This document shows, one piece after another, positions 22,558-43,735 of a stretch of 64,000 bases of DNA. Position numbers and translations under genes: made by a program. Each line of letters opens with the position of its first letter. The stretch's first letter is position 1. The notes beneath the pieces are model-generated. The model ran no database searches, was not told the origin of the DNA, and saw only the letters and a program-made list of their open reading frames with translations. Source of the DNA: Lysobacter alkalisoli (GTDB lineage: Bacteria; Pseudomonadota; Gammaproteobacteria; Xanthomonadales; Xanthomonadaceae); the NCBI RefSeq assembly GCF_006547045.1, contig NZ_CP041242.1, positions 3,048,001 through 3,112,000 on the forward strand, written 5' to 3'.

Positions 22558-22667
22558 GGAAGCCGGTGGCCATGGGTTTGCGGGACACGCCGTGAATACA
22601 TCCATGGAGGCTCATCCGAAACGTCCATGTTTCGGAAGGTCCCGCAAACCCATGGCCACCGGCTTCC
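22558..22667. repeat. Long inverted-repeat element, copy A (perfect 29-bp arms)
   Basis: Perfect 29-bp inverted arms, 22558-22586 and 22639-22667, enclose 52 bases that hold an inner hairpin (CCGAAAC / GTTTCGG). Read on the minus strand, the loop shares a core with copies B (30.8 kb) and C (43.6 kb): a CATGGAYG loop, then GAGCC and ACGGCGTGTC. The arm sequence is unique to this copy. Confidence 0.85.
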
Positions 22668-22732
22668 CCCGTAGAGACCTCCGTCGCTTGGCGAAGATCC
22701 TTGCAGAACCCGCCCCACGCTATCCTGACGCG

Positions 22733-23209
22733 ATGACCGAATCTGTTCCGCCCTCTCCCGCCACACCGGCCGCGCTGGTCGGTCGCCGCCTGCTCGCCCT
22801 GTTCTACGACGTGTGGCCGACGGTGGCGATCTGGATGCTGCTGTCGCTGCTGTTCAACCTCGGCTATCTGCTGGCCGGGCACGGCGAACGCGAGTACATC
22901 GCCCCGTTCACCCTGCTTGGCTGGCTGCTGTGGCTGGCGTGCTGGGGCGTGGCCGGGCTGTACGCAACCATCAGCTGGCGCCGCGGCGGGCAGACCCTGG
23001 GCATGCGACCGTGGCGGCTGCGGGTGGTCGCGGCCGACGGCAGCCGCCCCGACATGCGCGCGCTATGGCTGCGCTATGCGGTCGGCAGCCTGTCGCTGCT
23101 GGCCGCGGGGCTGGGCTTCTGGTGGGCCTGGCTCGACCGCGACCGCCTGACCTGGCACGACCGCGCGAGCGGCACACGGCTGGTACGGACACCAAAAGCG
23201 AGGAAATAG
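22733..23209 (+). CDS. RDD family membrane protein
   Basis: This 158-residue protein starts MTESVPP and has three hydrophobic spans (about residues 22-50, 62-85 and 115-135). The first is preceded by RRLLALFYDVWPT, a form of the R-D-D signature, and RGGQTLGMRPWRLRVV is the usual RDD loop. Function is poorly defined; some members affect ion transport or stress. It converges on lptG across a long terminator hairpin. Confidence 0.82.
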   Translation: MTESVPPSPATPAALVGRRLLALFYDVWPTVAIWMLLSLLFNLGYLLAGHGEREYIAPFTLLGWLLWLACWGVAGLYATISWRRGGQTLGMRPWRLRVVAADGSRPDMRALWLRYAVGSLSLLAAGLGFWWAWLDRDRLTWHDRASGTRLVRTPKARK

Positions 23210-23283
23210 TGGAGAGGAGTGAGAAAAGAGTGGGAGCGATGGGTGGTTCCATCTCTTTTCTCACTCCTTCTTCACTCTCCACT
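23208..23283. terminator. Bidirectional terminator between RDD gene and lptG
   Basis: A long stem made of AGTGGAGAG and a 14-bp GAGTGAGAAAAGAG on the left pairs with the reverse complement on the right, with an eight-base bulge. Its A-rich and T-rich flanks act as a T-run in either direction. The RDD stop codon lies inside the left arm. Confidence 0.75.
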
Positions 23284-23288
23284 GCTTT

Positions 23289-24389
23289 CTACCCCGACCG
23301 CCGCCGGAACAGCCACACCGACACCCCGACCATGATCAGGGTCGGCAGCAGGTAGGCGATGCGGAAGTCGAACTTGAGCACCTTGGCCAACTGCACGAAC
23401 TGCGCCTGCAGCAGGTAGAAGCCGAGCCCGAACACGATGCCGATGAACAGCCGCCTGCCGGTACCGCCACTGCGCAGCATGCCGAACGCGAACGGGATCG
23501 CCGCCAGGCACAGCGCCAGCACGTTGAACGGGTAGAACCAGCGGCCCCAGTAATGCTCCTTGAAGTCGCCGGCATCGAGGTCGTTGCGCTCGCGGTAGTC
23601 GATCGCCTGGCGCAGGTCGCTTGCGGACAGGTAGCGCGGCCGGTCGGTGCCAGCCGACAGCGCGGTGGCGTCCAGGCGCGACTCCCAGCGCTCCTCGTCG
23701 ACATGGGTCTCGCTGACCGAGCGCGCGTCGAAGAAGGTCCGGGTCACGTCGCGCAACAACCAGCCGCCCGGCCGGTGCTCGGCGACCTTGGCCTGCGCCA
23801 TCGACTGCAGCCGGCCGTCATCGGCAAACTCGTACAGCCACACGTCGTGCAACTCGATCCAGCTGTCGCCGCCCTCGGCACGTTCCTGGCCGCCGGCGGC
23901 GTTGAGGATGGTATCGCCCTCGCGCGCCCATACGCCGGAATAGCGGGCGACGATCATGTTGTCGGACTTGGCCGAGCTCTTGAGCGCGTCGGCGCGACGC
24001 TGTCCGTTCGGCCCGGCAGTCTCGCCGCTGATCACCATCAGCAGGGTCAGCACCGCCACCGCACCGGCCACCGCCATGCTGATCCGCCGCCGCGACAGGC
24101 CGATCGCGCGCAGCGCGGTCAGCTCCGAGGTCGCCGACAGCTGGCCCAGCCCCATCAGCGAGCCGATCACCGCCGCGTACGGGAACAGGTAATGGGCCCG
24201 CCGCGGCACGGTCAGGCCGACATGGGCCAGTGCCTGGACGAAGCCATAGCGGCCCTTGCCAAGGTCACCGAGCTCGCCGACCAGAGCCAGCATCACGTCC
24301 AGCCCCAGCAGCACCGCCCAGCTCAGCGTCACCGAAGCCAGCACCACGCGGGCCACGTACAGGTCGTGGATCCGGGGACCTATTTTCAT
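23289..24389 (-). CDS. lptG: LPS export ABC transporter permease LptG
   Basis: The ATG at 24389 overlaps the lptF stop as ATGA and gives 366 residues. Six membrane helices flank a periplasmic beta-jellyroll region (about 110-260), as in the LptF/LptG family. With LptF and two LptB ATPases it extracts lipopolysaccharide from the inner membrane and passes it to LptC. The gene ends in a basic tail after VSVWLFRRR. Confidence 0.92.
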   Translation of the reverse strand: MKIGPRIHDLYVARVVLASVTLSWAVLLGLDVMLALVGELGDLGKGRYGFVQALAHVGLTVPRRAHYLFPYAAVIGSLMGLGQLSATSELTALRAIGLSRRRISMAVAGAVAVLTLLMVISGETAGPNGQRRADALKSSAKSDNMIVARYSGVWAREGDTILNAAGGQERAEGGDSWIELHDVWLYEFADDGRLQSMAQAKVAEHRPGGWLLRDVTRTFFDARSVSETHVDEERWESRLDATALSAGTDRPRYLSASDLRQAIDYRERNDLDAGDFKEHYWGRWFYPFNVLALCLAAIPFAFGMLRSGGTGRRLFIGIVFGLGFYLLQAQFVQLAKVLKFDFRIAYLLPTLIMVGVSVWLFRRRSG

Positions 24390-25468
24390 GCGCGGACCCT
24401 CGGCCGGCGCATGCGGCCGTCGGTGGAATACAGCCAGACCCCGACCACAAGCAGCGGCAGCACCAGCCACCACAGGCCGAGCACCGGCGGGATCGTGCCC
24501 TTGGCCAGCCAGCCGGACCCCACCAGCATCAGGTTGACGCCGATCAGGTAACCGAGGAAGCCCATCAGCATCGGCCCGTAGCGGGCCTGACGCGGCATGC
24601 TGCGCGCCAGCGGAATCGCCATCAGGGCGAAGGCCAGTGCCAGCAGCGGCGGTGCCAGCCGGCGATGCAGCTGGGCCACCGCCTCCGGCCGCGGGTCGCC
24701 GACCAGGGCAACGGTCGGCAGCGCCTTGGGCTCATCGAGGTCGAACTTCTCCTTGCCGGGCGGCATCCGCACCTCATTGCTGGCGTAGCGCATCAGCCGG
24801 TAGTCCTGGCCACCATTGCGGGGGCCCTCGACCTCGAAGCCGTTGTTCAGCACCAGATAGCGCTCGCCATCCTCGCCTGCCTTGAGCAGGCCCTCGTTGG
24901 AGGTAGTCACGTTGATGCGGTCGTCGGACTGGCGGTAGACGAAGACCCGGTCGAAGCGCCTGCCGTCGCCGGTCATCTCACCGACGAAGGCGACCCCGCC
25001 ACCGCCCGGCAGCTCGGTGAAGCGCCCCGGCTCCAGTCCGGCGACGAGGGTGTTGCGGTTGGCCTCGTTGATCAGCTCCCGCGACAGCCGCTCGGCCCAC
25101 GGCCCCAGCCACAGCGAACAGGCCGCGACCACGGCCACCAGCGGCACCATCACCCACAGCAGCGGCTTGAGCATGCGTCGCGGGCCGACCCCGATCGAGG
25201 CGATCACCGGCATCTCGGCATCGCGGTAGAGCCGCCCCATGGCCATCATCAAGCCCAGCATCAGTGCCAACGGCATGATCACCGGCAACCAGTTCAACAG
25301 CACCAGGCCAAGCTGGGCCAGCAACAGCCCCGCCGGCACTCGGCCACGGGCGATGTCGCCAAGCACGTCGGTCAGGGCGCCGCCCACGCAGACGATCAGC
25401 AGCACCGTCAGGGTGGCCAGGACAGCCTGGGCGAATTCACCCAGCAGGTATCGGTCGAGCTTCGGCAT
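24386..25468 (-). CDS. lptF: LPS export ABC transporter permease LptF
   Basis: This 360-residue protein starts MPKLDRYLLGEF, the usual LptF N-terminus, with six predicted helices and a central periplasmic domain. It is first in the lptF-lptG pair and divergent from pepA, as in many gammaproteobacteria. No Shine-Dalgarno sequence is visible before the ATG, and a TTGACA box lies unusually close upstream, so translation may be leaderless (inference). Confidence 0.92.
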   Translation of the reverse strand: MPKLDRYLLGEFAQAVLATLTVLLIVCVGGALTDVLGDIARGRVPAGLLLAQLGLVLLNWLPVIMPLALMLGLMMAMGRLYRDAEMPVIASIGVGPRRMLKPLLWVMVPLVAVVAACSLWLGPWAERLSRELINEANRNTLVAGLEPGRFTELPGGGGVAFVGEMTGDGRRFDRVFVYRQSDDRINVTTSNEGLLKAGEDGERYLVLNNGFEVEGPRNGGQDYRLMRYASNEVRMPPGKEKFDLDEPKALPTVALVGDPRPEAVAQLHRRLAPPLLALAFALMAIPLARSMPRQARYGPMLMGFLGYLIGVNLMLVGSGWLAKGTIPPVLGLWWLVLPLLVVGVWLYSTDGRMRRPRVRA

Positions 25469-25479
25469 CAGGCGGGCTT

Positions 25480-25508
25480 GCTTTAGAATCGGGGGTTCTC
25501 TGTGTCAA
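25480..25508 (-). promoter_or_regulatory. Possible sigma-70 promoter for lptFG
   Basis: A consensus TTGACA lies at 25503-25508 on the minus strand, with TAAAGC 17 bases downstream (25480-25485). The expected start site would be only about five bases before the lptF ATG, leaving no room for a ribosome-binding site. The -10 match is weak. Confidence 0.35.
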
Positions 25509-25621
25509 TGGCCGGCGCACATGTCCGTGCCACCGCCACACGCCGGGCAACGCATCGCCCCGGCATCCAGACCGTCGATTGTACGGAACCATTCATCGCA
25601 TAACTCCCGGGAATCTGTTTC

Positions 25622-27112
<1,491 letters not shown>

Positions 27113-27125
27113 CCTGCCCCGCCCC

Positions 27126-27548
27126 ATGCGCGCCGACTTCTACCTGATCGCCAAGCCGCGGTTCCGCGAGGAGCCGCTGCGGCTGGTCTGCGAGCTGGCC
27201 CGCAAGGCCTACGAGACCGGCACCCCGACCCTGGTGCTGGCGCGCGACGCCGCGCAGGCCGAGCAGCTCGACGATCTGTTGTGGGCGTTCGACCCGGACG
27301 CGTTCATCCCGCACCAGATCGTCGGCGTGGATGCCGACGAGGACGAGGCCGAAGTGCTGATCGCCGCGCCCGATGCCGACGTGCCGTTGCGGCCGATCGT
27401 GATCAACCTGCGCGACGGCGCGGTCGAGGGCGACTTCGAGCGGGTGCTTGAAGTGGTCCCGGCCGACCAGGACGCGCGCGGCCCGCTGCGCGAGCGCTGG
27501 AAGCACTACCAGGCGCGCGGCATCGATGTGAACAAATACGACATGTGA
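27126..27548 (+). CDS. holC: DNA polymerase III chi subunit
   Basis: This 140-residue protein starts 13 bases after pepA. It shows the chi pattern: MRADFYLI start, [13 protein letters not shown], a [14 protein letters not shown] motif and the acidic C-terminal segment ending [16 protein letters not shown]. Chi links the clamp loader, through psi, to single-strand binding protein at the replication fork. The pepA-holC-valS order is standard. Confidence 0.92.
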
Positions 27549-27742
27549 CTTTTGACTCCCTTCCCCTGCTTGCGGGGGACAAACCGGCAGGGACTGCCGG
27601 TTTGGACGCCGAAGGCGCCCGAAGGGTGAGCCACATGGATGTGGCGAATCCACGTGTCCGAAGGGCGGATGGGGCGCTTTCGCCCTCACCCCAACCCTCT
27701 CCCGCACGCGGGAGAGGGGGCAAAGAAGACAACCTTGAAACC
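27549..27742. repeat. Mosaic of REP-like hairpins in the holC-valS gap
   Basis: This 194-bp spacer holds several hairpins: CCCTGCTTGCGGGG near 27565, AAACCGGCAG / CTGCCGGTTT near 27582-27604, GCCA-CATGGATG-TGGC near 27631-27646, and CTCTCCCGC / GCGGGAGAG near 27695-27717. The last belongs to a widespread repeat starting CCCTCACCCCAACCC. The CATGGATG loop is the same octamer seen in copy C of the long inverted-repeat family. The reading frame runs through from upstream, but valS starts at 27743. Confidence 0.6.
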
Positions 27743-30700
27743 ATGACCACCCTCGCTCCCAGTTACGACCCCACCCAGTTCGAATCGCGCCTCTATCAGC
27801 AGTGGGAGGCCAGCGGCGTGTTCACGCCGACCGGCAAGGGCGAGCCCTATTGCATCCTGCTGCCGCCGCCGAACGTCACCGGCACCCTGCATATGGGACA
27901 CGCGTTCCAGCACACCCTGATGGATGCGCTGGTGCGCTATCAGCGCATGCGGGGCCGCGACGTGCTGTGGCAGATGGGCAGCGACCATGCCGGCATCGCG
28001 ACCGAGATGGTGGTCAGCCGCAACCTCGCGATCGAGGGCAAGGGCGAGACCCGCGACTCGCTCGGCCGCGACGGCTTCATCGAGAAGGTCTGGGAGTGGA
28101 AGGCCCACTCCGGCGACACCATCGAGCGGCAGATGCGCCGGCTCGGCGCGTCGGGCGACTGGAGCCGCAGCGTGTTCACGATGGACGAGATGCCGGCCAA
28201 GGCCGTGGTCGAGGCCTTCATCCGCCTGCACGAAGAGGGGCTGATCTACCGCGGCCAGCGCCTGGTCAACTGGGACCCGGTGCTGAAGACCGCGATCTCC
28301 GACCTGGAGGTCGAGAACCGCGAAGTCCCGGGCCACATGTGGCACTTCAAGTACCCGCTGGCCGGCGGCGAAACCTACGAGTACATCGAGCGCGACGCCG
28401 AAGGCAACGTCACCCTGCGCGAAACGCGCGACTACATATCGATCGCGACCACCCGCCCGGAAACCATGCTCGGCGACGGCGCGGTCGCGGTGCACCCCTC
28501 CGACGCGCGCTATGCGCCGATCATCGGCAAGCTGTGCGAGATCCCGGTCGGTCCGAAGGAACACCGCCGCCTGATCCCGATCATCACCGACAGCTACCCG
28601 GACCCCGACTTCGGCTCCGGCGCGGTGAAGATCACCGGCGCGCACGACTTCAACGACTACGCGGTCGCCGCACGCAACGGCATCCCGATGTATGCGCTGA
28701 TGGACGATGGCGCGCGCATGCGCACCGATGGCCTGGCGTACGAGGAAAGCGCGCGCATTGCCGGCCAGATCGCACGCGGCGAACGCGAAGCCGGCGACGT
28801 GACCGAGATCAACCTGGTGCCCGAGGAACTGCGCGGCCTGGACCGCTACGCGGCCCGCGAACGCGTGGTCGAGGCGATCACCGCCGAAGGCCTGGCCGTG
28901 ACCGATGCCGAAGGCAACCCGGTCGTCGACCACAAGCCGATCATGCAGCCCTTCGGCGACCGCTCCGGCACCGTGATCGAGCCGTACCTGACCGACCAGT
29001 GGTTCGTGAAGATGGACGGCCTCGCCAAGCGCGGCATGGAGCTCGTTGAGCATGCCGATGGAAAGCCGGGGCAAGTGAAGTTCGTCCCGCCGAACTGGAT
29101 CAACACCTACCGCCACTGGATGGAGAACATCCAGGACTGGTGCATCAGCCGCCAGCTGTGGTGGGGGCATCGCATCCCGGCCTGGTACGACGAGGCCGGC
29201 AACATCTTCGTCGGCCGCGACGAGGCGGAAGTGCGGGCGAAGCACGGCCTCGGCGACGACGTCGTGTTGAAGCAGGACAGCGACGTGCTGGAAACCTGGT
29301 TCTCCTCGGCGCTGTGGCCGTTCAGCACCCAGGGCTGGCCCGACGAGGGCACGATGGCCGCGCGCGGCTGCGACCGCTACCTGCCGTCGAGCGTGCTGGT
29401 CACCGGCTTCGACATCATCTTCTTCTGGGTCGCCCGGATGATCATGATGACCGACCACTTCACCGGCGAGGTGCCGTTCCGCGACGTCTACATCACCGGC
29501 CTGGTCCGCGATGCGCACGGCCAGAAGATGTCCAAGTCCAAGGGCAACGTGCTCGATCCGCTCGACCTGATCGACGGCATCAGCGCCGACGCCCTGGTCG
29601 CCAAGCGCACCACCGGCCTGATGCAGCCGAAGATGGCCGAGAAGATCGAGAAGGCCACCCGCAAGGAATTCCCGGACGGTATCCCGGCCTTCGGCGCCGA
29701 CGCGCTGCGCTTCACCCTCGCCGCGCTGGCCGGCCCGGGCCGCGACATCAAGTTCGACCTCGGCCGCGCCGAGGGCTACAAGAACTTCTGCAACAAGCTG
29801 TGGAACGCGACCCGCTTCGTGCTGATGAACACCGAGGGCGCAAGCTTCAAGGGCGCGCCGCAACCACGCACCGACGCCGAGAAGTGGATCCTCGCCCGTC
29901 TCGACCATGCCGCCGCCGAGGCCGGGAAGCACTTCGCCGACTACCGCTTCGACCTGCTCGGCCAGGCGTTGTACGAATTCGCATGGAACGCGTTCTGCGA
30001 CTGGTTCGTCGAACTGGCCAAGCCGGCGCTCAACGGCAACGACACAGCCGCCGCCGACAGCACCCGCCACACACTGCTGTACGTGCTCGAACGCCTGCTG
30101 AGCCTGCTGCACCCGCTGGTACCGTTCGTGACCGAAGAGCTGTGGCAGGCGGTTGCGCCGCGGCTCGGCATCGAGGGCGGCACGATCATGACCCGCGCCT
30201 ACCCACAGGCCGGCGGCATTGACTACCGCTCCGCCGAAGCCGACATCGAATGGCTCAAGGCGATGGTTTCCGCGCTGCGTCGCGTGCGCAGCGAACTCAA
30301 CGTCGCGCCGTCCAAACAGGTCCGCCTGCTGCTGGCCGGTGGTGGCGAGGCCGACCACCCTCGCGTCAGCCGCTTTGCGTCGCAGTTGCGCTTCCTGGTC
30401 CGCCTCGAAAGCATCGACACCCTGGCTGCGGGCAGCGAAGCCCCGGCCGCCGCAACCGCGGTGGTCGGCGAGCTGCACCTGCTGGTGCCGCTGGAAGGCC
30501 TGGTCGACCTCGACGCCGAGCGCGCCCGCCTGGACAAGGAAATCGCCAGGGTCGGCGCGGAGAAGGCCAAGAGCGAAACCAAGTTGTCGAAGTTCAGCGA
30601 CAAGGTGCCGCCGGCGGTGGTCGAACAAGAGCGCCAGCGCTTGGCCGACTGGACCCGCCAGCATGAGGGATTGACCGCGCAACGCGCGAAGCTGGGCTGA
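27743..30700 (+). CDS. valS: Valyl-tRNA synthetase
   Basis: The 985-residue class I synthetase starts [10 protein letters not shown]. It has the HIGH-type motif HMGH near residue 51 ([13 protein letters not shown]), an editing domain with T-T-R-P-E-T, the KMSKS loop near 596 and a C-terminal coiled coil (about 900-985) that contacts the tRNA. A longer open frame upstream reads only repeat DNA. No T-box or leader peptide was recognised. Confidence 0.96.
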
Positions 30701-30718
30701 CGAGACCCGCAATCATCG

Positions 30719-30997
30719 TCATCCCGAGCGCAGCGAGGGATCTGTTCTCCTGCCAACTGTCCAGACGCAGGCGGGCATCGCTTTGCAGGACCTTCCGAAA
30801 CATGGACGTTTCGGATGAGCCCCCATGGGTTAGGCAACGCGTTTGCGAAGCACTGCTTCGTGCGTTGCCGAACGCCCGAGCGCTACGCGCGAGGGCCGGA
30901 CCCGCCTGCGGGGGTTCACGGCGTGTCCTGCAAAGCGATGCCCGCCTACGTCCCTTGCCAACTTTCAGAACAGATCCCTCGCTGCGCTCGAGATGAC
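30719..30997. repeat. Nested long inverted-repeat element, copy B
   Basis: This fills most of the 316-bp valS-rimI gap. Outer arms of 30 bp (30719-30748 and 30968-30997; GTCATCCCGAGCGCAGCGAG family) enclose inner 28-bp arms (30764-30791 and 30925-30952, one mismatch). The core starts with the same CCGAAACATGGACGTTTCGG hairpin as copy A and ends TTCACGGCGTGTC. Between them about 80 bases of further nested palindromes (around 30833-30915) are inserted. Confidence 0.85.
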
Positions 30998-31016
30998 GAG
31001 GCCGGGGAACCTCGGC

Positions 31017-31517
31017 CTACTCTGGCGACAGCAACTCGATCGCCATCACCAGCGCATCCTCGCGACCGTCGTCGGCCGGGTAGTAGCGCGGACGGCGGCC
31101 GATTTCGTTGAAACCCTCCCGCTCGTAGAGCCGGATCGCGCCGGCATTGGACGGCCGCACTTCCAGGAAAATGCGCTCCACGCCACGGCCGCGGGCAACG
31201 TGCATCAGCGCCTGCAGCAGGCGCCGGCCAAAACCTTGGCCCTGCCGCTCGGGATCGATGCAGATATTGAGCACATGGGCCTCGCCGGCGGCCAGGCTCA
31301 TCAGGAAATAACCGACGATCCGGCCAGCCTCGTGGAGCACCCAGGCCGGGTAGTCCGCGCGCAGGCAGTCGCGGAAGATCCCGAGCGTCCACGGGTGCGG
31401 ATAGGCCCGCAGTTCGATCTCGTAGACCTCGTCGAGGTCGGCCTCGCGCATCGGCCGCAACGAGGCCGCGGGATGCACGGCATCGGTCGGTCGCACGTCC
31501 TGTCGCCGCGCGCTCAT
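31017..31517 (-). CDS. rimI: Ribosomal protein S18 alanine N-acetyltransferase
   Basis: The ATG at 31517 overlaps the upstream stop as ATGA and gives 166 residues. A GNAT fold is clear: LRPMREADLDEVYEIE, then PHPW, the acetyl-CoA loop RQGQGFGRRLL, and NAGAIRLYEREGFNEIGRRPRYY at the end, all RimI hallmarks. It acetylates the N-terminal alanine of ribosomal protein S18. It is last in the pssA - (unknown) - rimI operon. Confidence 0.92.
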   Translation of the reverse strand: MSARRQDVRPTDAVHPAASLRPMREADLDEVYEIELRAYPHPWTLGIFRDCLRADYPAWVLHEAGRIVGYFLMSLAAGEAHVLNICIDPERQGQGFGRRLLQALMHVARGRGVERIFLEVRPSNAGAIRLYEREGFNEIGRRPRYYPADDGREDALVMAIELLSPE

Positions 31518-35230: not shown

Positions 35231-35241
35231 ATGCCATCAGG

Positions 35242-35270: not shown

Positions 35271-35344
35271 CTGCGCGTTTCCCATGGAATGGGCCGTATA
35301 TTCATCCCCTTTTTCACGTATTCCGAACCTGTTCCGGAGGCTGC

Positions 35345-35695
35345 ATGTCGATCGATATCAATGCCCTGTCCACGAAAGAACTCGAAAACCTGATCAGCAA
35401 GGCCAAGAAGCGCAAATCGACGCTGGCCAAGCGCAAGCCGGTCGCCGCGGTGCGCAAGAAACTCACCGCGCTGGCCAAGGCCGAGGGTTACACCATCGAT
35501 GAGCTGTTCGGTGGCAAGTCCACTGGCCGTGCCGCCACCCCGCGCAAGACCCGCAAGGCCGCCGGCAAGGTCGCCCCGAAGTATCGCGACCCGGCCAACG
35601 GCGCCAACACCTGGACCGGGCGTGGCAAGCAGCCGCGCTGGCTCGCCGCCTATACCGGCGAGGGACGCAAACTGGAGGATTTCCTGATCAAGTGA
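35345..35695 (+). CDS. H-NS-family nucleoid protein
   Basis: This 116-residue basic protein follows a GGAGG site. An N-terminal oligomerisation helix (ELENLISKAKKRKSTLAKRKP) leads to a linker and the C-terminal DNA-binding domain with TWTGRGKQPRWL, the H-NS/BpH3 minor-groove motif. It likely binds AT-rich DNA and silences acquired genes such as those in the accessory stretches here (inference). It has its own promoter and terminator, so it is monocistronic. Confidence 0.9.
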   Translation: MSIDINALSTKELENLISKAKKRKSTLAKRKPVAAVRKKLTALAKAEGYTIDELFGGKSTGRAATPRKTRKAAGKVAPKYRDPANGANTWTGRGKQPRWLAAYTGEGRKLEDFLIK

Positions 35696-35717
35696 TCGGG
35701 ATTTCTGGACGACAGAA

Positions 35718-35746
35718 CGCCGGCCACCAGGCCGGCGTTTTTGTTT
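35718..35746 (+). terminator. Intrinsic terminator of the H-NS-like gene
   Basis: An eight-bp stem CGCCGGCC / GGCCGGCG with loop ACCA, followed by TTTTTGTTT. It starts 22 bases after the stop codon. Confidence 0.88.
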
Positions 35747-35749
35747 CCG

Positions 35750-36033
35750 GGGCACAGAAAACGATCCTTCTCCCAGGTGAGGGGGAGCTCGTTCAGCGAA
35801 GACGTGGGCACTGCCGCTTGCGTTCGATCGCCGTTTCTCGCCGCTGTCTGGCTGTCCCGACGCGACCTGCCGGCCTTGACGGCGAAATCAAGGAGGAGGC
35901 GCCGGCCCTGGCCGGTGCCGGGGGACATTCGCATCCAAGGGCCTTCGCCCCCGGCGCCCCGGTCATCCAACAGACCCGGCGCTTTCCCCTCGATTGGGCG
36001 AAGAACCAAAAGAAAGCCCGCCCCCCAGCGCTG
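35750..36033. other. Intergenic region with no recognised gene
   Basis: About 280 bp between the H-NS terminator and the thrE-like 3' end. I see no ORF with a ribosome-binding site on either strand, no repeat shared with the rest of the window and only small GC hairpins near 35902-35920. It may be decayed coding DNA. Confidence 0.5.
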
Positions 36034-36056
36034 GGGCGAACTTTAGTAGTTCGCCC
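36023..36056 (-). terminator. Double hairpin after the ThrE-like gene
   Basis: On the minus strand GGGCGAAC pairs with GTTCGCCC (36034-36056). It overlaps a second palindrome CCCCAGCGCTGGGG (36023-36036), after which a TTTCTTTT stretch follows. Only one of the two can form at a time. Confidence 0.45.
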
Positions 36057-36065
36057 ATTCCCGCC

Positions 36066-37331
36066 TTACAGATTCCGCCGAGACGGCAACAGCAGGTTGC
36101 CGATCAGCAGACCCGCAACCAGGGCCAGGATGATATTGAGCACCGCCAGTATCGCGGCATGGCCGGCACCCACATCCTGTTGCTGCAGCAGGGTCAGCAG
36201 GCTACGCAGGCTGGCGCTGCCGGGCACCAGCATGATGATGCCGGGCACCCGGATCACCGCGCCGGGACGCTGCAGCCAGCGGGCATAGGCATTGCCGGCG
36301 ACGGTAATGACCAGGGCCGCGACGAATATGCCGGCCAGGCTGCCCATGGCCAAACCGACATGGCGTGATATCAGGTAACCGCCAGCGGCGGCAGCCATCA
36401 CCACCGGATAGTCGCGACGGTGACCGCGAAACAGGATCGCGAACGCACCGGCTGCCAGCGCTACCGCACACCATTCCACCCATGCCGGCTGCGGCCGCAG
36501 GGCGCGCACCTGCGGCTCCAACCCGGCCAGGCTGGCGACATACAGCGCGACCACGGTACCGATACCCAGCTTCAGTATCGTGGTCACCGCACCGGCAAAC
36601 CTCGCCGAGCCGGCGACCAGATGCTGGCTGCTCAGCTCGTTGATCGCATTGGTCAGCGCCATGCCGGGCAGCAGCACGATCAGCGAGGCGATGATCACGG
36701 TGTTCTGGTTGAGCGGAATGAAAAAGCTGGCGACCAGCACCGTGACCGCGGTGGCAACCAGTGCCGCGATCACGTCCACGCCCTCCTTCAGCCGTGGCCG
36801 CAGGTCGGCCAGTTGCACCAGGCAGCCGATCAACAGACCGTTGGCGCCGGCCAGCGCGATCTCCAGCCATGGCAGTCGCAGCAGGCCGGCCACCGCCGCG
36901 GCGCACATGCCGTAACCCAATATCTGCAGCAGCCGCGCCCGGGTCCCCGGCGGTTCGTCGAGTACCGCCATTGCGACGTGGGCCTCGGCCAGACCCATCT
37001 GTCCGGCCAGTACCGCCTCGGCGATGCGGTCGGTTTCGCCGAGCCGGGCCAGGTCGTTCTCGCCCGGCGGCAGTCGGATCACCCGGGTCACGTCGCTCTC
37101 ACCGGCCGGTCGCTGCGGGTCGCTGAAGCTCAGGATCAGACCGGTCGGATTGGCCCAGGGCTCGCACTCCAGCCCCAGCTTGTCGGCCACCGAGGTAATC
37201 GCGCCTTCCAGGCGCTGGGCCGTGGTGCCATAGGTGTGCAGGCGCGCGGCCAGCTCGCAGACGAAATTGATCCGGGCCGAGTAGCGCGCGGCGCTCAGCG
37301 GCGTTGCTTCCTGGAGAGTAGGGTCCGACAT
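36066..37331 (-). CDS. ThrE-type threonine/serine exporter family protein
   Basis: The chosen start (37331, MSDPTLQEAT) gives 421 residues. The N-terminal DUF1212-like domain (LAARLHTYGTTAQRLE ...) is followed by about ten membrane helices covering both the ThrE and DUF3815 halves, so a single chain holds what is split in YjjP/YjjB. LIVLLPGMALTNAINEL is typical. Predicted role: proton-driven export of Thr/Ser or small dicarboxylates; the substrate is not determined here. It is divergent from the Mla-like operon, 84 bases away. Confidence 0.82.
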   Translation of the reverse strand: MSDPTLQEATPLSAARYSARINFVCELAARLHTYGTTAQRLEGAITSVADKLGLECEPWANPTGLILSFSDPQRPAGESDVTRVIRLPPGENDLARLGETDRIAEAVLAGQMGLAEAHVAMAVLDEPPGTRARLLQILGYGMCAAAVAGLLRLPWLEIALAGANGLLIGCLVQLADLRPRLKEGVDVIAALVATAVTVLVASFFIPLNQNTVIIASLIVLLPGMALTNAINELSSQHLVAGSARFAGAVTTILKLGIGTVVALYVASLAGLEPQVRALRPQPAWVEWCAVALAAGAFAILFRGHRRDYPVVMAAAAGGYLISRHVGLAMGSLAGIFVAALVITVAGNAYARWLQRPGAVIRVPGIIMLVPGSASLRSLLTLLQQQDVGAGHAAILAVLNIILALVAGLLIGNLLLPSRRNL

Positions 37332-37415
37332 GGCGGAAGGATGGCACGAGGCACCGCCTTCCAACAGCCTGCGATGCATGCATCCGCCAGCGGCCAGCAT
37401 GTATCCTCGCCGACA

Positions 37416-38540
37416 ATGGCCCATCAACCGTCCCAGACTGAAGCGCCACGGCTTGCCATCGACCCCGACCAGCCGGCCCTGATGCGGCTGACCGGACGCT
37501 GGACGCTCAACTTCGCGACCGAACTGAGCCAGGCGCTGCGGTCGGCGCCGGAGAACGCCACCCGCTTCGATGCCCGCGACGTGGCCCGGCTGGATTCGCT
37601 GGGCGTGCTGCAGCTGATCCGCTTCGCCCGGCGCCGCGGCATCGATTTCGACGCCTGCCTGTTCCACGAGGACCACCGCGCTCTGGTCGAGGCGATCGAA
37701 GACGTCGCCGACGATCGCCCCGCTCGCGGGCGCGAATACGGCGTGGCCGAGGCCCTGGCCCGCCTCGGCCGCGCGGTACACCGCAACTGGCGGGAGTTCC
37801 TGGCGCTGATCGGCTTTTTCGGAGAGGTGCTGGCCAAGCTGGCGAGGATGTTCGGCCAGCCGCGCCGGTTCCGCCCGACCGCGACCGTGTACCACATGGA
37901 GCAGGTCGGTCTCGATGCGGTACCGCTGGTCGCCCTGCTCTGCTTCCTGGTCGGCGCGGTGGTCGCCTTCCTCGGCGCGAACATCCTGCGCGATTTCGGC
38001 GCGACCATCTTCGTGGTCGAACTGGTCAGCATCGCGTTCCTGCGCGAGTTCGCGGTGTTGCTGACCGCGATCATTCTTGCCGGCCGCACCGCCAGTGCGT
38101 TCACCGCCCAGATCGGAGCGATGGTCAGCCGCGAGGAGGTCGATGCGATCCGCACCCTCGGCCTGGACCCGATCGACCTGCTGGTGATCCCGCGCGTGCT
38201 GGCGTTGCTGGTGATGCTGCCGCTGCTGACCTTCGTGGCGATGGTCGCCGGCCTGCTGGGCGGCCTGACCGTTGGCGCCTACGGTCTGGACATCCCGCCA
38301 CAGCAGTATCTGGCGCGCATGCACGAGACGATGGAACTCCGGCACTTCCTGGTCGGCCTGGTCAAGGCGCCGGTGTTCGCGGTGATGATCGCCCTGATCG
38401 GCTGTCTGGAAGGGTTGCAGGTCGAGGGCACGGCACAGTCGGTCGGCGAGCGCACCACGTCAAGCGTGGTGCAGGCGATCTCGATGGTGATCGTGGCCGA
38501 TGCGTTCTTCGCCATCTGGTTCATGCAGATGGGTTACTGA
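37416..38540 (+). CDS. MlaE-family ABC permease with N-terminal STAS domain
   Basis: The 374-residue protein joins a STAS-like domain (about residues 20-95, including ARLDSLGVLQLIRFARRR) to an MlaE permease domain with five helices (about 130-370). In E. coli these are separate proteins, MlaB and MlaE. It should form the membrane core of an MCE lipid transporter moving phospholipids between membranes. It is first in a four-gene operon with one- to four-base overlaps or very short gaps. Confidence 0.9.
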   Translation: MAHQPSQTEAPRLAIDPDQPALMRLTGRWTLNFATELSQALRSAPENATRFDARDVARLDSLGVLQLIRFARRRGIDFDACLFHEDHRALVEAIEDVADDRPARGREYGVAEALARLGRAVHRNWREFLALIGFFGEVLAKLARMFGQPRRFRPTATVYHMEQVGLDAVPLVALLCFLVGAVVAFLGANILRDFGATIFVVELVSIAFLREFAVLLTAIILAGRTASAFTAQIGAMVSREEVDAIRTLGLDPIDLLVIPRVLALLVMLPLLTFVAMVAGLLGGLTVGAYGLDIPPQQYLARMHETMELRHFLVGLVKAPVFAVMIALIGCLEGLQVEGTAQSVGERTTSSVVQAISMVIVADAFFAIWFMQMGY

Positions 38541-39349
38541 TGAGCACGCTCCGGATCGCACCGACGATGAAGCCAGGCGAGCCGATCGTCCGCGTACGCG
38601 GACTGGTCAACCGTTTCGGCGAGCAGGTCGTTCACGACGGCCTCGACCTCGACGTGCGGCCGGGCGAGATCCTCGGTGTGGTCGGCGGCTCCGGCTCCGG
38701 CAAGTCGGTGCTGATGAGGACCATCCTCGGCCTGCGGCGGCCGGACGCGGGGGAGATCGCGGTGTTCGGCATCGACGCGGTCGCCCACGATCCCGTCCGG
38801 CGCCGCGAGATCGAGCGCCGCTGCGGTGTGCTGTTCCAGGACGGTGCGCTGTTCTCGTCGCTGACCGTCGGCGAGAACGTGCAGGTGCCGCTGAAGGAAT
38901 ACCATCCTCACCTGCCGGGCTCGCTGCTCTACGAGCTGTCCCTGCTCAAGGTCAAGCTTGCCGGCCTGCCCGCCGACGCGATCGACAAACTGCCCGCGCA
39001 GTTGTCAGGCGGCATGCGCAAGCGTGCAGGCCTTGCGCGCGCACTGGCGCTGGACCCGCCGCTGCTGTTCCTCGACGAACCCACCGCCGGCCTCGACCCG
39101 ATCGGCGCGGCCGCGTTCGACCGCCTGATCCGCACGCTGCAGCAGGCATTGGGGCTGACCGTGTTCCTGATCACCCACGATCTCGACACCCTGTACGCTA
39201 TCTGCGACCGTATCGCCGTGCTCGCCGACCGCCGGGTCATCGCCTGCGCGCCGGTCGAGGAAGTGGAGCAACTCGATCATCCGTGGGTGCGGGAATATTT
39301 CCACGGACCGCGCGCGCGCGCCGCGCAGGCCGCCCGAGAGGCAATCTGA
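38540..39349 (+). CDS. MlaF-family ABC transporter ATPase
   Basis: This 269-residue ATPase has Walker A GGSGSGKS near residue 50, the Q-loop in VLFQDGALFSSLTV, signature LSGGMRKR near 155, Walker B LLFLDEPTAGLD near 175 and the H-loop LITHDL. The ALFSSLTVGENV segment is typical of MlaF. Its start overlaps the permease stop (TGATG). It energises the MCE transporter. Confidence 0.92.
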   Translation: MSTLRIAPTMKPGEPIVRVRGLVNRFGEQVVHDGLDLDVRPGEILGVVGGSGSGKSVLMRTILGLRRPDAGEIAVFGIDAVAHDPVRRREIERRCGVLFQDGALFSSLTVGENVQVPLKEYHPHLPGSLLYELSLLKVKLAGLPADAIDKLPAQLSGGMRKRAGLARALALDPPLLFLDEPTAGLDPIGAAAFDRLIRTLQQALGLTVFLITHDLDTLYAICDRIAVLADRRVIACAPVEEVEQLDHPWVREYFHGPRARAAQAAREAI

Positions 39350-39352
39350 CGC

Positions 39353-40279
39353 ATGGAAACCAAAGCCAACTACGTGCTCATCGGTGCATTCACGATCGTC
39401 GTGACCCTGTTCCTGCTGCTGTTCGCGCTGTGGGCGGCCAAGTACTCGTCGGAGAAGAGCTGGCAGGCCTATGCGGTGATCTTCAACGAGCCGGTGACAG
39501 GGCTGTCGGAGGGCAGCATGGTCCAGTACAACGGCATCTCGGTCGGCACGGTGGAATCATTGCGGCTGGCGCCGGACGACCCGCGCCGGGTGTTCGCCCA
39601 CCTGCGCGTGCAGGCCAGCGCACCGGTCAAGACCGACACCCGCGCCAAGATGTCGATGCCCAGCCTCACCGGCAGCCCGATCATCCAGCTCACCGGCGGC
39701 AGCCCGGGCGCTCCGTTGCTGGTCGATGCCGACCAGCGCGAGGTTCCGGTCATCGAAACCGAACCCTCGGCGCTTCAGAACATCGCCGACACCGCCAACC
39801 GGCTCGTGTCCCGGCTCGACCAGGTGCTCAGCGAGGACAACGTCGCCAACATCGCCAGGACGCTGGAGAACCTCGAGGCGACGACCGGTTCGATCGCCGA
39901 CCAGCGCGAAGACCTGGGCGCCATGATCGCCAATGCACGGCGTTCCACCGAGCAGCTGGAAGCGACCCTGGTCACGACCCGCGATGCCATGGAAAGCCTA
40001 GACCGCGAGCTGGTCGCCAAGCTGCCGGGGCTGGTGGCACGACTGGAAAGCACGTTGACCAACCTCGATGACGCCGCCGGCAACGCCAACAGCATCCTCG
40101 GCGAGAATCGCGCCGCGATCGGCAGCTTCGCCAATGATGGCCTGGCCCAGTTGGGCCCGACCCTGGCCGAGTTGCGGGTCCTGGTACGTGACCTTCGCCG
40201 GATGAGCGACCGCCTCGACAGCAACCCGACCCGCTACCTGCTGGGCCGCGACGCACCCAAGGAGTTCGTCCCCGAATGA
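39353..40279 (+). CDS. MCE-domain (MlaD-like) protein
   Basis: The 308-residue protein has one N-terminal membrane helix (about 7-27), one MCE domain (about 38-120, with VTGLSEGSMVQYNGISVG) and a long coiled-coil-prone C-terminal region (about 140-290). It is longer than E. coli MlaD, and the extended helical tail may form a tunnel or needle, as in other MCE proteins. It follows the ATPase by three bases. Confidence 0.9.
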   Translation: METKANYVLIGAFTIVVTLFLLLFALWAAKYSSEKSWQAYAVIFNEPVTGLSEGSMVQYNGISVGTVESLRLAPDDPRRVFAHLRVQASAPVKTDTRAKMSMPSLTGSPIIQLTGGSPGAPLLVDADQREVPVIETEPSALQNIADTANRLVSRLDQVLSEDNVANIARTLENLEATTGSIADQREDLGAMIANARRSTEQLEATLVTTRDAMESLDRELVAKLPGLVARLESTLTNLDDAAGNANSILGENRAAIGSFANDGLAQLGPTLAELRVLVRDLRRMSDRLDSNPTRYLLGRDAPKEFVPE

Positions 40280-40968
40280 TCAGAATGCCGATCAGAATGC
40301 CGACCAGAATTATGGGCATCGAGCCGGACCCGCGCTCGGCCCTCCTGCTGCCGACCCTGCTGCTGGCCCTGCTCGTGCTGCCGGCCTGCTCGATCCTCGG
40401 CAATGCCGGCCCGAGGGAGGCGTCCGTCCGCTACGCGCCCGCTCCGCGCGTCCTGCCCGACCCCGGCTGGCCGCGCGCGGACTGGCAGCTGTCGATCGCC
40501 GACCCCGAGGTCAGCACCGGATTCGACAGCCTGCGCATCGCGGTACGGCCACAATCGAACGAGCTCCAGGTCTACCAGGGGGCCCGCTGGGCGAGACCGC
40601 CGGGCAGCATGGTGCTCGACAGCGTCCTGCAGGCGCTGGAGGACTCCGGCCGGATCGATGCGGTGGCACGCCAGAGCAGCGGCATCGGCGCCGACTACAA
40701 ACTGGTGATGGATCTGCGCCGGTTCGAATCCGACTATGCCGGTGCCACCCTGCCCTCGGCGGTGGTCGAGATCAGCGCCAAGCTGCTGCACGTACGCGAT
40801 CAGCAGGTGGCCGCGTCGCGGGTGTTCCTGCAGTCGGTCCCCGCGGCCAGCCCGGCAATGGCCGACGTGGTCACCGCATTCGAGCAGGCGCTGGCCGCCA
40901 ACAGCCGGGAGATGGTCGGCTGGGTGCTCGAATCCGGCAACGCGCACGAACTCAGCGCCCATCGGTAG
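40276..40968 (+). CDS. ABC-type transport auxiliary lipoprotein (PqiC-like)
   Basis: The 230-residue protein starts at an ATG overlapping the MCE gene stop. It has a lipoprotein signal (LLVLPACS) and the ABC_trans_aux pattern with a beta-rich domain (FDSLRIAVRP to LVMDLRRFE). It replaces MlaC-type periplasmic shuttles, as in PqiABC-like systems, so the operon is probably an MCE transporter of that general kind. The first 12 codons contain a 12-bp triplicate (40278-40313, Ile-Arg-Met-Pro units). A later ATG at 40312 could be the true start. Confidence 0.82.
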   Translation: MIRMPIRMPTRIMGIEPDPRSALLLPTLLLALLVLPACSILGNAGPREASVRYAPAPRVLPDPGWPRADWQLSIADPEVSTGFDSLRIAVRPQSNELQVYQGARWARPPGSMVLDSVLQALEDSGRIDAVARQSSGIGADYKLVMDLRRFESDYAGATLPSAVVEISAKLLHVRDQQVAASRVFLQSVPAASPAMADVVTAFEQALAANSREMVGWVLESGNAHELSAHR

Positions 40969-41146
40969 GAGCGCCCTTGGGCGCGATTCCCGGGCTGTGC
41001 CCGGGAATCCCCAAAGTTTGCTGCGCAAACCTTGGGCCCCGCAGTGCACTGCCACACCCCCATTCGCGCCTACGGCGCGAATCGCCCCCTGACTCAGGGG
41101 GCTGGATTCCCTTTTGATCTGTAGGAGCGCCCTTCGGCGCTCCTAC
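40969..41146. repeat. Run of consecutive hairpins between the Mla-like operon and the AlkB gene
   Basis: Five near-perfect palindromes stand in a row: GATTCCCGGGC/GCCCGGGAATC (about 40986-41010), CAAAGTTTGC/GCAAACCTTG (about 41012-41035), ATTCGCGCC/GGCGCGAAT (about 41062-41082), GCCCCCTGA/AGGGGGC (about 41084-41102), and GTAGGAGCGCC/GGCGCTCCTAC (41121-41146). The last overlaps the stop codon of the AlkB-family gene. Convergent transcripts meet here. Confidence 0.75.
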
Positions 41147-41721
41147 AGGACCCTGCGGAAGGTCAGGTTGATCCGCTCCCCCACCATCCGCTGCGTGCGC
41201 GGCAACGCATGCTGGCAGTGGCGCTGGGTCGGCCCCGACATCACCAGCAGGCTGCCGGGCGGCAGTTCCAGTGTCAGTCGCGCATCCGGGCGGATCCGGT
41301 GCTTGAGCAGGAAACGCCGCGTCGCCCCCAGGCTGACCGAAGCGATGACCGGCTCCGGGCCGAGTTCGGGCTCGTCGTCGCTGTGCCAGCCCATCGCGTC
41401 GCGGCCGTCGCGGTACAGGTTGGCCAGTACGCTGTTGAAGTCCACGCCAAGTTCCCTGCGCAATCGTGCCCGCACGGACAACAGCGCCTCAGGCCACGGA
41501 TGCGGCTCGAACAACGTGCCGGAATAGCGGTAGCGCGCACCGGCATCCCCGATCCAGCAGCTCAGCCGTGGCGAGGCATGCATGCGGCCGAACAGTCGGA
41601 TGCGGTGCACCTCCCAGGCGATCCCATCGCGCAACTGGTGGAACAGCGCTTCCGCATCGCGCCGGGACAACCATTCCGGGTCCATTTCGATACGGGCATC
41701 GGGCAGTCGGACGGGAATCAT
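41143..41721 (-). CDS. AlkB-family 2-oxoglutarate/Fe(II) dioxygenase
   Basis: The start at 41721 (MIPVRLPD) gives 192 residues. The iron ligands HxD (MGWHSDDE) and the later His (RHCQHALP), plus the 2-oxoglutarate-binding R-x-N-x-T-F-R (ERINLTFR), are intact. LYRDGRDAMGWHSD and LFEPHPWPEAL resemble human ALKBH2/3-like bacterial AlkB proteins. It probably removes alkyl lesions from nucleic acids by oxidation. It is divergent from ETF-QO. Confidence 0.9.
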   Translation of the reverse strand: MIPVRLPDARIEMDPEWLSRRDAEALFHQLRDGIAWEVHRIRLFGRMHASPRLSCWIGDAGARYRYSGTLFEPHPWPEALLSVRARLRRELGVDFNSVLANLYRDGRDAMGWHSDDEPELGPEPVIASVSLGATRRFLLKHRIRPDARLTLELPPGSLLVMSGPTQRHCQHALPRTQRMVGERINLTFRRVL

Positions 41722-41882
41722 CCGGCAGAGTCTGGAAGTGCACCGACCGAGTGTCCAGAAGCCGGTGGCCACCCCTGCAGAATTCCTGTGGAGCGGTTTG
41801 GCTGGTATTCCACGCTGGCAGGCCGGAGTTTTGAGACAATGCCAGGTCGATACCCAAGCAAGCCGCGAGCGGAGCAGCCAGC

Positions 41883-43520
41883 ATGAGCGAAATCCAACCT
41901 GCCGCCGAAGTCGAACCGGTCGAGCGTGACGTGATGGAATACGACGTCGTCACTGTCGGCGCCGGTCCGGCCGGACTGGCGTTCGCGATCCGGCTCAAGC
42001 AGTTGAACCCCGAGATCTCGGTCTGCGTGATCGAGAAGGCCTCGAGCGTCGGCGCCCACATCCTGTCCGGCGCGGTGATCGAGACCGGGCCCCTCGACGC
42101 CCTGCTGCCGAACTGGCGCGACAACCCGCCGCCGATCTGCGTGCCGGCGACCGAAGACGAATTCTGGCTGCTGAGCCGCGACGGTGGCCGCAAGCTGCCG
42201 GTACCGCCGGGCATGAACAACCACGGCAACGTGATCGTCAGCCTCGGCGCGATGTGCGCATGGCTGGCGCCGCAGGCCGAGGCGCTCGGGGTGGAGATCT
42301 ACCCCGGCTTCGCCGCCGCCGAAACCCTGCACGACGCCGACGGCAAGGTCATCGGCGTGCGCATCGGCGACATGGGCGTGGCCAAGGACGGTTCGCACAA
42401 GCCCGGCTTCACCGCCGGCATCGACATCCACGCCAAGGTCACCGTGCTCGCCGAGGGCGCGCGCGGCCACCTGACCAAGCGCCTGGTCAAGCAGTTCAGG
42501 CTCGACGCCGACAGCGACCCGCAGGGCTATTCGATCGGCATCAAGGAGCTGTGGCAGGTTCCGGAGGAGCGCGTTTCTCCCGGCAAGATCGTGCACAGCT
42601 TCGGCTGGCCGGCCGACAGCAAGACCTATGGCGGCAGCTTCCTCTACCACCTCGACAAGGGCCGGATCGCGCTCGGCTACGTCAGCGGCCTCGATTACAG
42701 CGACCCGGACTACAAGCCGTGGGAAGCCTTCCAGCAGTGGAAGAACCACCCGACGATCAAGCCGCTGCTGGAAGGTGGCAGCATCATTTCTGCGGGCGCG
42801 CGCGCGATCGTCACCGGCGGCTGGCAGTCGTTGCCGAAAGTGGAGATGCCCGGTGCGCTGCTGATCGGCGACACCGCCGGTCTGCTCAACGTACCCAAGG
42901 TCAAGGGCACCCACCAGGCGATCCGCAGCGGCATGCTCGCCGCCGAGCACCTGGTGGCATCGCAGCTGGAGCCTGAAGGTTTCGACGCCAAACTGCGCAG
43001 CTCCGATGCGATGGCCGAGCTGAAGAAGGTCCGCAACATCAAGCCCGGCTTCAAGCGCGGACTGTGGTTCGGCATGCTCAACGCCGCGTGGGAAACGATC
43101 ACCGGCGGCCTGTCGCCGTGGACGCTGAAGAACAAGCCGGACTGGTCGTCGCTGGACAAGCTCGGTGAGCACGAGCAACCGAAGCGCGACTACGTCGAAC
43201 GCACCCTGGAACCGCGCGACCGCCTCGCCGGCGTCTACTTCGCCGCCACCGAGCACGACGAGGACCAACCGGTTCACCTGCGCGTACATGACACTTCGGT
43301 CTGCGTGACCCGTTGTGCCGAGGAATACGGCAATCCCTGCATCCGCTTCTGCCCGGTCGGCGTCTACGAGATCGTCGAGGACGAGGCCAACGGCAAGCGC
43401 CTGCAGATCAACGCCGCCAACTGCGTCCACTGCAAGACCTGCGACATCAAGGATCCCTACCAGATCATCGACTGGGTGACGCCGGAAGGCGGCTCGGGGC
43501 CGAACTACCAGAATCTCTGA
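41883..43520 (+). CDS. etfQO: Electron transfer flavoprotein-ubiquinone oxidoreductase
   Basis: The 545-residue enzyme has an N-terminal FAD-binding motif (GAGPAGLAFA near residue 26). A C-terminal 4Fe-4S domain carries Cys ligands in CIRFCP and CVHCKTCDI. It passes electrons from reduced ETF to ubiquinone at the membrane, linking acyl-CoA and amino-acid dehydrogenases to respiration. Its partners etfB-etfA lie 3.4 kb downstream on the same strand. Confidence 0.95.
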   Translation: MSEIQPAAEVEPVERDVMEYDVVTVGAGPAGLAFAIRLKQLNPEISVCVIEKASSVGAHILSGAVIETGPLDALLPNWRDNPPPICVPATEDEFWLLSRDGGRKLPVPPGMNNHGNVIVSLGAMCAWLAPQAEALGVEIYPGFAAAETLHDADGKVIGVRIGDMGVAKDGSHKPGFTAGIDIHAKVTVLAEGARGHLTKRLVKQFRLDADSDPQGYSIGIKELWQVPEERVSPGKIVHSFGWPADSKTYGGSFLYHLDKGRIALGYVSGLDYSDPDYKPWEAFQQWKNHPTIKPLLEGGSIISAGARAIVTGGWQSLPKVEMPGALLIGDTAGLLNVPKVKGTHQAIRSGMLAAEHLVASQLEPEGFDAKLRSSDAMAELKKVRNIKPGFKRGLWFGMLNAAWETITGGLSPWTLKNKPDWSSLDKLGEHEQPKRDYVERTLEPRDRLAGVYFAATEHDEDQPVHLRVHDTSVCVTRCAEEYGNPCIRFCPVGVYEIVEDEANGKRLQINAANCVHCKTCDIKDPYQIIDWVTPEGGSGPNYQNL

Positions 43521-43526
43521 TCCGGC

Positions 43527-43735
43527 GTCATCTTTCCGCAAGCGGCGAGGGAGCGGCTTTCCAGCAAACTATCCAGACGCAGCCGGACATGCCTTTGCAT
43601 GACCGTCTGCGGCATGGATGCCGCAGCCGAGCCCCAAGGATGGGTTTACGGCGTGTCATGCAAAGGCATGCCCGGCTGCGTCCTGCCGAAATGTCACCAC
43701 AGCAGCTCCCTCGCTACGCTCGGGATGACATGCAA
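43527..43735. repeat. Long inverted-repeat element, copy C
   Basis: Inner 28-bp arms (43576-43603 and 43655-43682, one mismatch) enclose 51 bases with the hairpin CTGCGG-CATGGATG-CCGCAG and the core ending TTTACGGCGTGTC, shared with copies A and B. The arms are flanked by REP-like sequence, clear on the right (CTCCCTCGCTACGCTCGGGA, near 43706) and degraded on the left. The element lies between convergent genes. Confidence 0.82.

Follow-up and report, generated by a model that had tools for sequence, protein, structure and literature searches.

The stretch of Lysobacter alkalisoli DNA considered here, the window, is 64,000 nucleotides (nt) of contig NZ_CP041242.1 (assembly GCF_006547045.1, positions 3,048,001 to 3,112,000 of the forward strand), and between its genes lie three copies, A, B and C, of a long inverted-repeat element with two hairpins between its arms (Table 1). 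Copy A stands between a divergent pair, an RDD-like gene (+) and a XerC/D-like recombinase gene (−), and is sense to the latter; copy B is sense to a valS-like gene (+) upstream of it and has a rimI-like gene (−) on its other side; copy C is sense to an upstream ETF-quinone oxidoreductase-like gene (+), with a CoA-transferase subunit B-like gene (−) beyond it (the names of these flanking genes were assigned by inspection). We put at roughly 0.6 the probability that the repeats are dispersed bivalent CsrA/RsmA-binding RNA elements, probably decoys, where transcription, binding, decoy role and spread are all inferred from sequence.

Table 1. The three copies and their parts, in window coordinates
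Feature	Position	Strand	Basis
Copy A, complete element, arm subtype I	22558..22667	-	inverted repeat, core match, covariance model
Copy A hairpin 1, CCGAAAC-ATGGAC-GTTTCGG	22616..22635; loop 22623-22628	-	sequence, fold, helix covariation
Copy A hairpin 2, TCC-ATGGAT-GTA, non-standard middle pair	22597..22608; loop 22600-22605	-	sequence, helix covariation
Copy B, arm subtype II, insertion in hairpin 2	30764..30952	+	weak match at genome 3078764-3078866
Copy B hairpin 1, CCGAAAC-ATGGAC-GTTTCGG	30795..30814; loop 30802-30807	+	sequence, fold
Copy B hairpin 2 insertion, ~80 nt, own inverted repeats	30830..30911, ends approximate	+	sequence, fold
Outer inverted repeat enclosing copy B, 33-nt arms, GTCATCCCGAGCGCAGCGAGGGATCTG type (arms 30716-30748 and 30967-30999)	30716..30999	.	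inverted-repeat scan
Copy C, complete element, arm subtype II	43576..43682	+	inverted repeat, core match, covariance model
Copy C hairpin 1, CTGCGGC-ATGGAT-GCCGCAG	43607..43626; loop 43614-43619	+	sequence
Copy C hairpin 2, CCC-AAGGAT-GGG	43633..43644; loop 43636-43641	+	sequence

The three inverted repeats are where the original prediction, made from the window alone, had placed them, and their arms are, as it said, perfect or nearly so (29, 28 and 28 nt in A, B and C, with 100, 96 and 96% complementarity). As RNA they fold 10.2, 11.2 and 9.6 standard deviations below dinucleotide shuffles. The short helix of hairpin 2 is not drawn in the minimum-energy fold of copy A; in that of copy C the stem of hairpin 1 gains one pair inside the loop and the region of hairpin 2 is drawn differently.

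The family is real and far larger than the three copies first noticed. A 30-nt core matches the 3.86-Mb Lysobacter genome 43 times with at most 3 mismatches, 22 and 21 times on the two chromosome strands, against 0 matches for the reversed pattern. A covariance model of the 43 copies, R1, matches 61 places at E<=1e-12, and together with copy B and one weak place the own-genome set comes to at least 63 copies, a lower bound with 150 of 2206 candidates scored. In the window, short fragments of the core, with mismatches allowed, match no more often than expected by chance (3 against a mean of 5.35; 5 against 3.54), and the case for significance therefore depends on the long core, on the arms and on the copies found across the genome.

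From 5′ to 3′ the element consists of a 28-nt arm ending in GAC, a short joint, hairpin 1 with an ANGGAY loop, a further joint, GAGCC, hairpin 2, likewise with an ANGGAY loop, TTYACGGCG and an arm starting with GTC: about 108 nt in all, two hairpins over a 28-bp closing stem, with loops that read C-ANGGAY-G. In the 43 copies the arms pair across 28 bp with no more than two departures from Watson–Crick pairing each, and the distances from arm to core are constant to within one base. That the arms of copy A share nothing with those of B and C, as was thought, is an effect of orientation: A lies on the minus strand, and at matched polarity two arm subtypes appear, GAAGCCGGTGGCCATGnnTTTGCGGGAC (copy A) and GACGCAGCCGGGCATGnnTTTGCAGGAC (copies B and C), with CATGnnTTTGCnGGAC common to both. 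Most arms in the genome fall into these two alignable subtypes, and the idea that they are captured target palindromes was rejected on that ground.

Some further traits go with the subtypes or with single copies. Many subtype II elements in the Lysobacter genome are, like copy B, enclosed by a further inverted repeat of GTCATCCCGAGCGCAGCGAGGGATCTG type, and some subtype I copies have TTCTTCTCCCA and TGGGAGAAGAA farther outward. The copy at genome positions 129373-129477 shows the start of a hairpin-2 insertion like that of copy B, perhaps a second, nested repeat family. In copy A and two other copies (L002, L034) TGTCCAG or TTTCCGG, a motif that usually flanks the element at its 5′ side, is found 3′ of it instead, which would fit an inversion of the element between its arms.

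The arms and inner stems covary. In a plain MAFFT alignment of the 43 own copies, made without structure, 98.7% of cells are standard pairs against 80.3% when shuffled, and 30 of the 41 pairs have changed on both sides against 18.9 in shuffles; structures shifted by 1-3 columns score far lower. The inner stems CCGAAA and CTGCGG, on whose difference with pairing kept the original prediction had remarked, are two among several covarying stem types. With relatives added (61 rows, 55 after removal of duplicates, one opposite-strand match and one partial match) the figures are 97.7% against 70.5%, with 37 pairs changed on both sides against 26.8, and in a set from named Gammaproteobacterial genomes (119 matches at 80 loci, one row being of the opposite strand) they are 94.4% against 56.4%, with 38 of 41 pairs against 35.2, both alignments being fitted to the model and so biased towards it. 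The values observed for the own-genome and named sets were reached by none of 500 shuffles. The covariance model and covariation test that had been proposed as a check have therefore come out in favor of conserved pairing.

On which molecule does this constraint act? When a single arm mutates, the mispair is G.T if read on one strand and A.C if read on the other. Read on the ANGGA strand, the 28-bp arms of the 43 copies hold 24 G.T and 1 A.C, and the outer arms of 61 own copies (2 of the 63, with arms out of register, were dropped) hold 37 G.T, 3 A.C and 9 other mispairs among 1708 cells. Among the underlying mutations, 27 C>T and 10 A>G gave G.T, whereas 2 G>A and 1 T>C gave A.C; as A>G feeds the G.T class along with C>T, cytosine deamination alone is insufficient. 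Counts of G.T, A.C and other mispairs are 38/4/12 and 39/13/45 in two further sets and 202/38/136 in the named set, with alignment A5 reduced by 6 of its 36 rows (four opposite-strand, one partial and one with an insertion) and alignment A6 by 1 of 119 (opposite strand).

The same preference is seen where elements change in place. From Xanthomonas hortorum jj2001 and Xanthomonas sp. LMG 31884 80 regions, 40 from each, were chosen among the best listed matches and paired by their flanks, together with four further loci, and 150 of 164 matches in them entered the alignment; of 30 orthologous pairs formed, one with 25 differences was dropped. In the outer arms of the remaining 29 pairs, single changes comprise 34 between Watson–Crick and G.U, 3 between Watson–Crick and A.C and 4 between Watson–Crick and other combinations, alongside 6 double compensations, 1 pair-breaking double change and 1 exchange of one non-standard pair for another; the inner helices add 4 double compensations. 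Elements beside a tuf-like gene in two species (L137, L138) also differ by double compensations, at a place where relatives have arrays and unit turnover is possible; the orthologous pair L146/L147 has one double compensation in hairpin 1, with diverged outer arms, and in L200/L203 the element differs by one change, which breaks an A-U pair. Gene conversion between known repeats had been named in advance as an explanation of the arms that would dispose of structural selection: with orthologous elements changing in place, the pairing can be explained without copying between repeats, though conversion between copies may contribute to the changes.

The great excess of G.U over A.C on the ANGGA strand of the long arms favors RNA. 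It points to selection on one strand in single-stranded form, as RNA or, with lower probability, as single-stranded DNA, with which strand-specific wobble taken alone is also compatible. The original prediction had invoked selection, or a copying mechanism, acting on structure, either cruciform DNA or RNA; structure and RNA (or one DNA strand) are supported, and double-stranded cruciform DNA, for which A.C should have been kept as G.T was, is contradicted.

For the element's function the earlier reading had nothing to offer; the loops suggest binding of CsrA/RsmA, a master post-transcriptional regulator. Among the 29 Xanthomonas pairs, changes in loop 2 number A 0, N 12, G 0, G 0, A 0 and X 1 by position, and those in loop 1 are 0-0-1-0-0-0. 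An ANGGAX hexaloop set directly on a stem is described as the high-affinity CsrA/RsmE site, closed by a C-G pair in the complex whose structure was solved (PMC4005645), and a loop fixed at A, G, G and A and free at N is the published CsrA/RsmE specificity. The N of loop 2 (e.g. in L378 and L426) is the most variable unpaired column of the Xanthomonas elements; that of loop 1 stays T. Loop 1, which lay outside the search pattern, has GGA in 116 of 118 named elements, and the closing C-G pair is present in 108 of 118 distinct named rows, one of these rows being an opposite-strand match. From GGA to GGA the distance is 23 nt in 186 of 221 parsed elements (range 21-25; 239 were tried and 18 were unparsable), within the reported range in which CsrA bridges sites, 10-63 nt and best above 18 (PMC7652899).

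The consensus from in-vitro selection with CsrA (SELEX, systematic evolution of ligands by exponential enrichment), RUACARGGAUGU (PMC7652899), has 50 exact sites in 11 genomes that bear the element, where the reversed pattern has 2; 31 of the 50 are in one genome, and 5 of the 11 genomes have none. Of 30 such sites fetched, 27 are in hairpin 2 and 3 elsewhere (L309, L311, L314). The 11 genomes were picked for bearing the element, and the count consequently speaks to the identity of the motif, not to a general enrichment. One bearer genome, G141, has nine CsrA-family matches and 31 exact SELEX sites, the highest number of each among the matches listed.

Transcribed on the CANGGAYG strand, the element would fold into two hairpins at a junction closed by a 28-bp stem, and at the tip of each hairpin an ANGGAY hexaloop would be seated on a C-G pair; with GGA motifs about 23 nt apart one CsrA/RsmA dimer might hold both. 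Copies in untranslated regions (UTRs), carried along or released as stable RNA, would bind CsrA/RsmA, and dozens to hundreds of them summed would form a distributed decoy that tunes free CsrA; the carrier mRNA might be affected locally as well. The closing stem could protect the RNA and hold the loops at bridging distance, a role that would explain why its sequence is free and its pairing and length are constrained.

Two known classes, CsrA decoys and high-copy palindromic repeats, come together in the element in a way that we did not find described. Like CsrB/CsrC and RsmX/Y/Z it would offer repeated GGA hairpin loops to CsrA/RsmA, at least two sites per molecule, its own binding being predicted. 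Those RNAs come from one to a few dedicated small RNA genes with many sites (PMC7694677), whereas the present element has two sites, is dispersed in dozens to hundreds of copies and has a 28-bp closing stem of free sequence. RsmU, from the 3′ UTR of comEA in Xanthomonas campestris, binds RsmA in electrophoretic mobility shift assays and co-immunoprecipitation (PMC7694677), so that a 3′ UTR RNA is able to bind RsmA in Xanthomonas. It resembles the element in coming from an mRNA 3′ end, and its host genus also bears the element; it is described as a single locus with four GGA motifs in the long form, limited to Xanthomonas (PMC7694677). Membership of RsmU in the family is not supported: in the comEA 3′ regions of two Xanthomonas genomes (L342, L343) model R2 has no match at E<=1, the matches at those loci being more than 1 kb away.

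Rfam 15 has no gathering-level match in the window, and at E<=1 the 12 matches over 5 loci include none to a CsrB, CsrC or RsmX/Y/Z family; they are to microRNA-precursor and unrelated small RNA models and were set aside as chance matches to long hairpins. A literature search that included six core sequences as text found no description of the repeat, the supplementary Xanthomonas small RNA lists not being compared.

Where do the elements sit with respect to genes? The upstream gene is sense for 42 of the 63 own copies and antisense for 21. Over four sets with 142 single elements the figures are 88 and 54 (p=0.005), and for tandem genes in these sets 52 and 34 (p=0.066), counted with a crude gene caller and with edge cases, far cases and inverted pairs excluded. 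In genome G374, perhaps a Shewanella, tandem arrays of elements precede a terminator shared with a convergent tuf-like gene (L277-L284, L289); their differing arms and hairpin modules are reminiscent of a multi-site decoy RNA.

Related sequences had been suspected in Xanthomonadaceae. Xanthomonas and Stenotrophomonas do have them, and the family reaches well beyond: model R2 has matches in 36 of 397 Pseudomonadota genomes, all Gammaproteobacteria, from at least 15 families, in a scan that scored up to 9 candidates per genome and so probably missed some. A core-pattern scan of named genomes gave at least 120 stretches, 80 of which were scanned with R2. Bearers among the matches listed are Xanthomonas, Stenotrophomonas, Thermomonas, Marinobacter, Halopseudomonas, Rheinheimera, Shewanella, Microbulbifer, Cellvibrio, Haliea and Aquisalimonas. 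With 150 candidates scored in each, Xanthomonas hortorum and Xanthomonas sp. LMG 31884 have 150 R2 matches and S. maltophilia SJTL3 has 121, some perhaps being one copy met on both strands. In Escherichia coli a first query found no match; a second matched 5 of 5426 genomes, at about 82% identity over 75% of the query, and adjoined insertion sequences in both regions inspected.

By comparison of listings by eye, csrA is present in 199 of the 397 genomes, in all 36 bearers and in 163 of the 361 others. Among the matches listed, 124 genomes of the same class have csrA (36 bearers) and 31 are without it (0 bearers), the csrA-lacking genomes counted in this way being fewer than their full number; by family, bearers occur in 15 of 29 with csrA and 0 of 10 without (Fisher p=0.006), an association confounded by phylogeny.

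That confounding is the first of several points that weigh against the CsrA/RsmA reading. Presence is patchy even within the genus of the window genome (3 of 7 genomes at E<=1e-12), so the element is not an essential regulator. Copy B, with its insertion in hairpin 2, retains the first ANGGA loop and has lost the second. When all four predicted GGA motifs of RsmU were changed to AAU, RsmA binding was reported not to be abolished (PMC7694677); by analogy, GGA loops need not be the sole binding determinant. In the inner helices of the 29 Xanthomonas pairs the single changes, which are few, are 2 between Watson–Crick and A.C and 0 involving G.U. The orientation bias is modest and is reversed for tandem genes in the ‘diverse’ set (6:9). 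The G.T excess persists among own copies whose upstream gene is antisense (11:0), and many elements of the two Xanthomonas genomes sit in inverted pairs; sense read-through from the next gene is thus not the whole story. Terminators show no clear excess downstream of elements, and with that the notion that each has its own terminator there was dropped.

Could the elements be structured RNA in the 3′ regions of mRNAs, stabilizing or ending transcripts as has been proposed for REP and BIME repeats, with loops that serve another protein or a tertiary contact instead of CsrA? Location at gene ends, the predominance of sense upstream genes in the own genome (42 to 21), strand-specific wobble and inverted pairs are all consistent with this, and REP repeats are reported to show GT pairing and to lie mostly downstream of genes (PMC3733652). 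It does not account for a variable N amid fixed A, G, G and A, for the agreement with the CsrA SELEX consensus or for the constant spacing of the GGA motifs, and we consider it unlikely. REP and BIME families with GTAG/CGTC tags are likewise high-copy palindromic intergenic repeats near gene ends, in inverted pairs, with compensatory stem changes and GT pairs (PMC3733652). REPs are palindromes of 20-40 bp with a terminal tag, the GTAG types often with RAYT genes (PMC3733652), whereas the element, about 108 nt long, is branched and has two ANGGA loops, and some of its bearers have no detected Y1 transposase; no recurrent GTAG was seen on inspection of the ends of the 63 own copies.

RAYT-type Y1 transposases act on one DNA strand, and this would suit a more doubtful explanation, that the repeat is mobile: a transposase or recombinase would act on the hairpin that one strand forms as single-stranded DNA, the constraint would bear on mobility and the loops would be protein recognition sites. 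Such an element would account for the many similar copies, the subfamilies, the inverted pairs, the patchy presence and a G.T excess independent of gene orientation. A Y1_Tnp match at E<=1e-8 is found in 21 of the 36 element-bearing genomes and in none of the other 15, which tells against mobilization by RAYT, though another enzyme is possible. The constraint, moreover, operates at orthologous sites. One Xanthomonas copy had no match in plasmid and phage collections, and a plasmid or phage vehicle was rejected. No clean empty insertion site was found in the single absence examined: in L339 (reverse) against L340 the 5′ arm and core of a Xanthomonas element are lacking in a relative, between short GCGGTG direct repeats, and this looks like a slippage deletion between them. 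Very improbable, finally, is that double-stranded cruciform DNA, or template-switch correction of quasi-palindromes, maintains the complementarity of these long, nearly perfect arms: as main causes, both would leave G.T and A.C equally frequent and are contradicted by 37:3 and 34:3; with 22 copies on one chromosome strand and 21 on the other, replication direction should not produce the asymmetry; and the conservation of the loops is left unexplained.

The CsrA/RsmA reading bears on how the regulator's activity is set in bacteria without CsrB or RsmY/Z, for instance in Xanthomonas. Homologues of CsrB, CsrC or the Rsm small RNAs are reported to be absent from that genus (PMC7694677, PMC7286519), which leaves room for such decoys, and RsmU is the sole RsmA-sequestering RNA that our literature search found there. 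Going by copy numbers and loops, a single master regulator may in some genomes be faced with dozens to hundreds of small decoys. A tentative extension, to which we would give rather less than even odds, is that in gammaproteobacterial genomes a self-spreading RNA repeat family serves, through its hundreds of copies, as a genome-wide CsrA/RsmA sponge within ordinary mRNAs, coupling free CsrA to total transcription and replacing CsrB/RsmYZ where these are lacking, as in Xanthomonadaceae. If the decoy reading is true, a regulator would be titrated by many small loci and not by one strong small RNA gene, the prediction of CsrA targets would be complicated, and an abundant class of repeats would gain a function.

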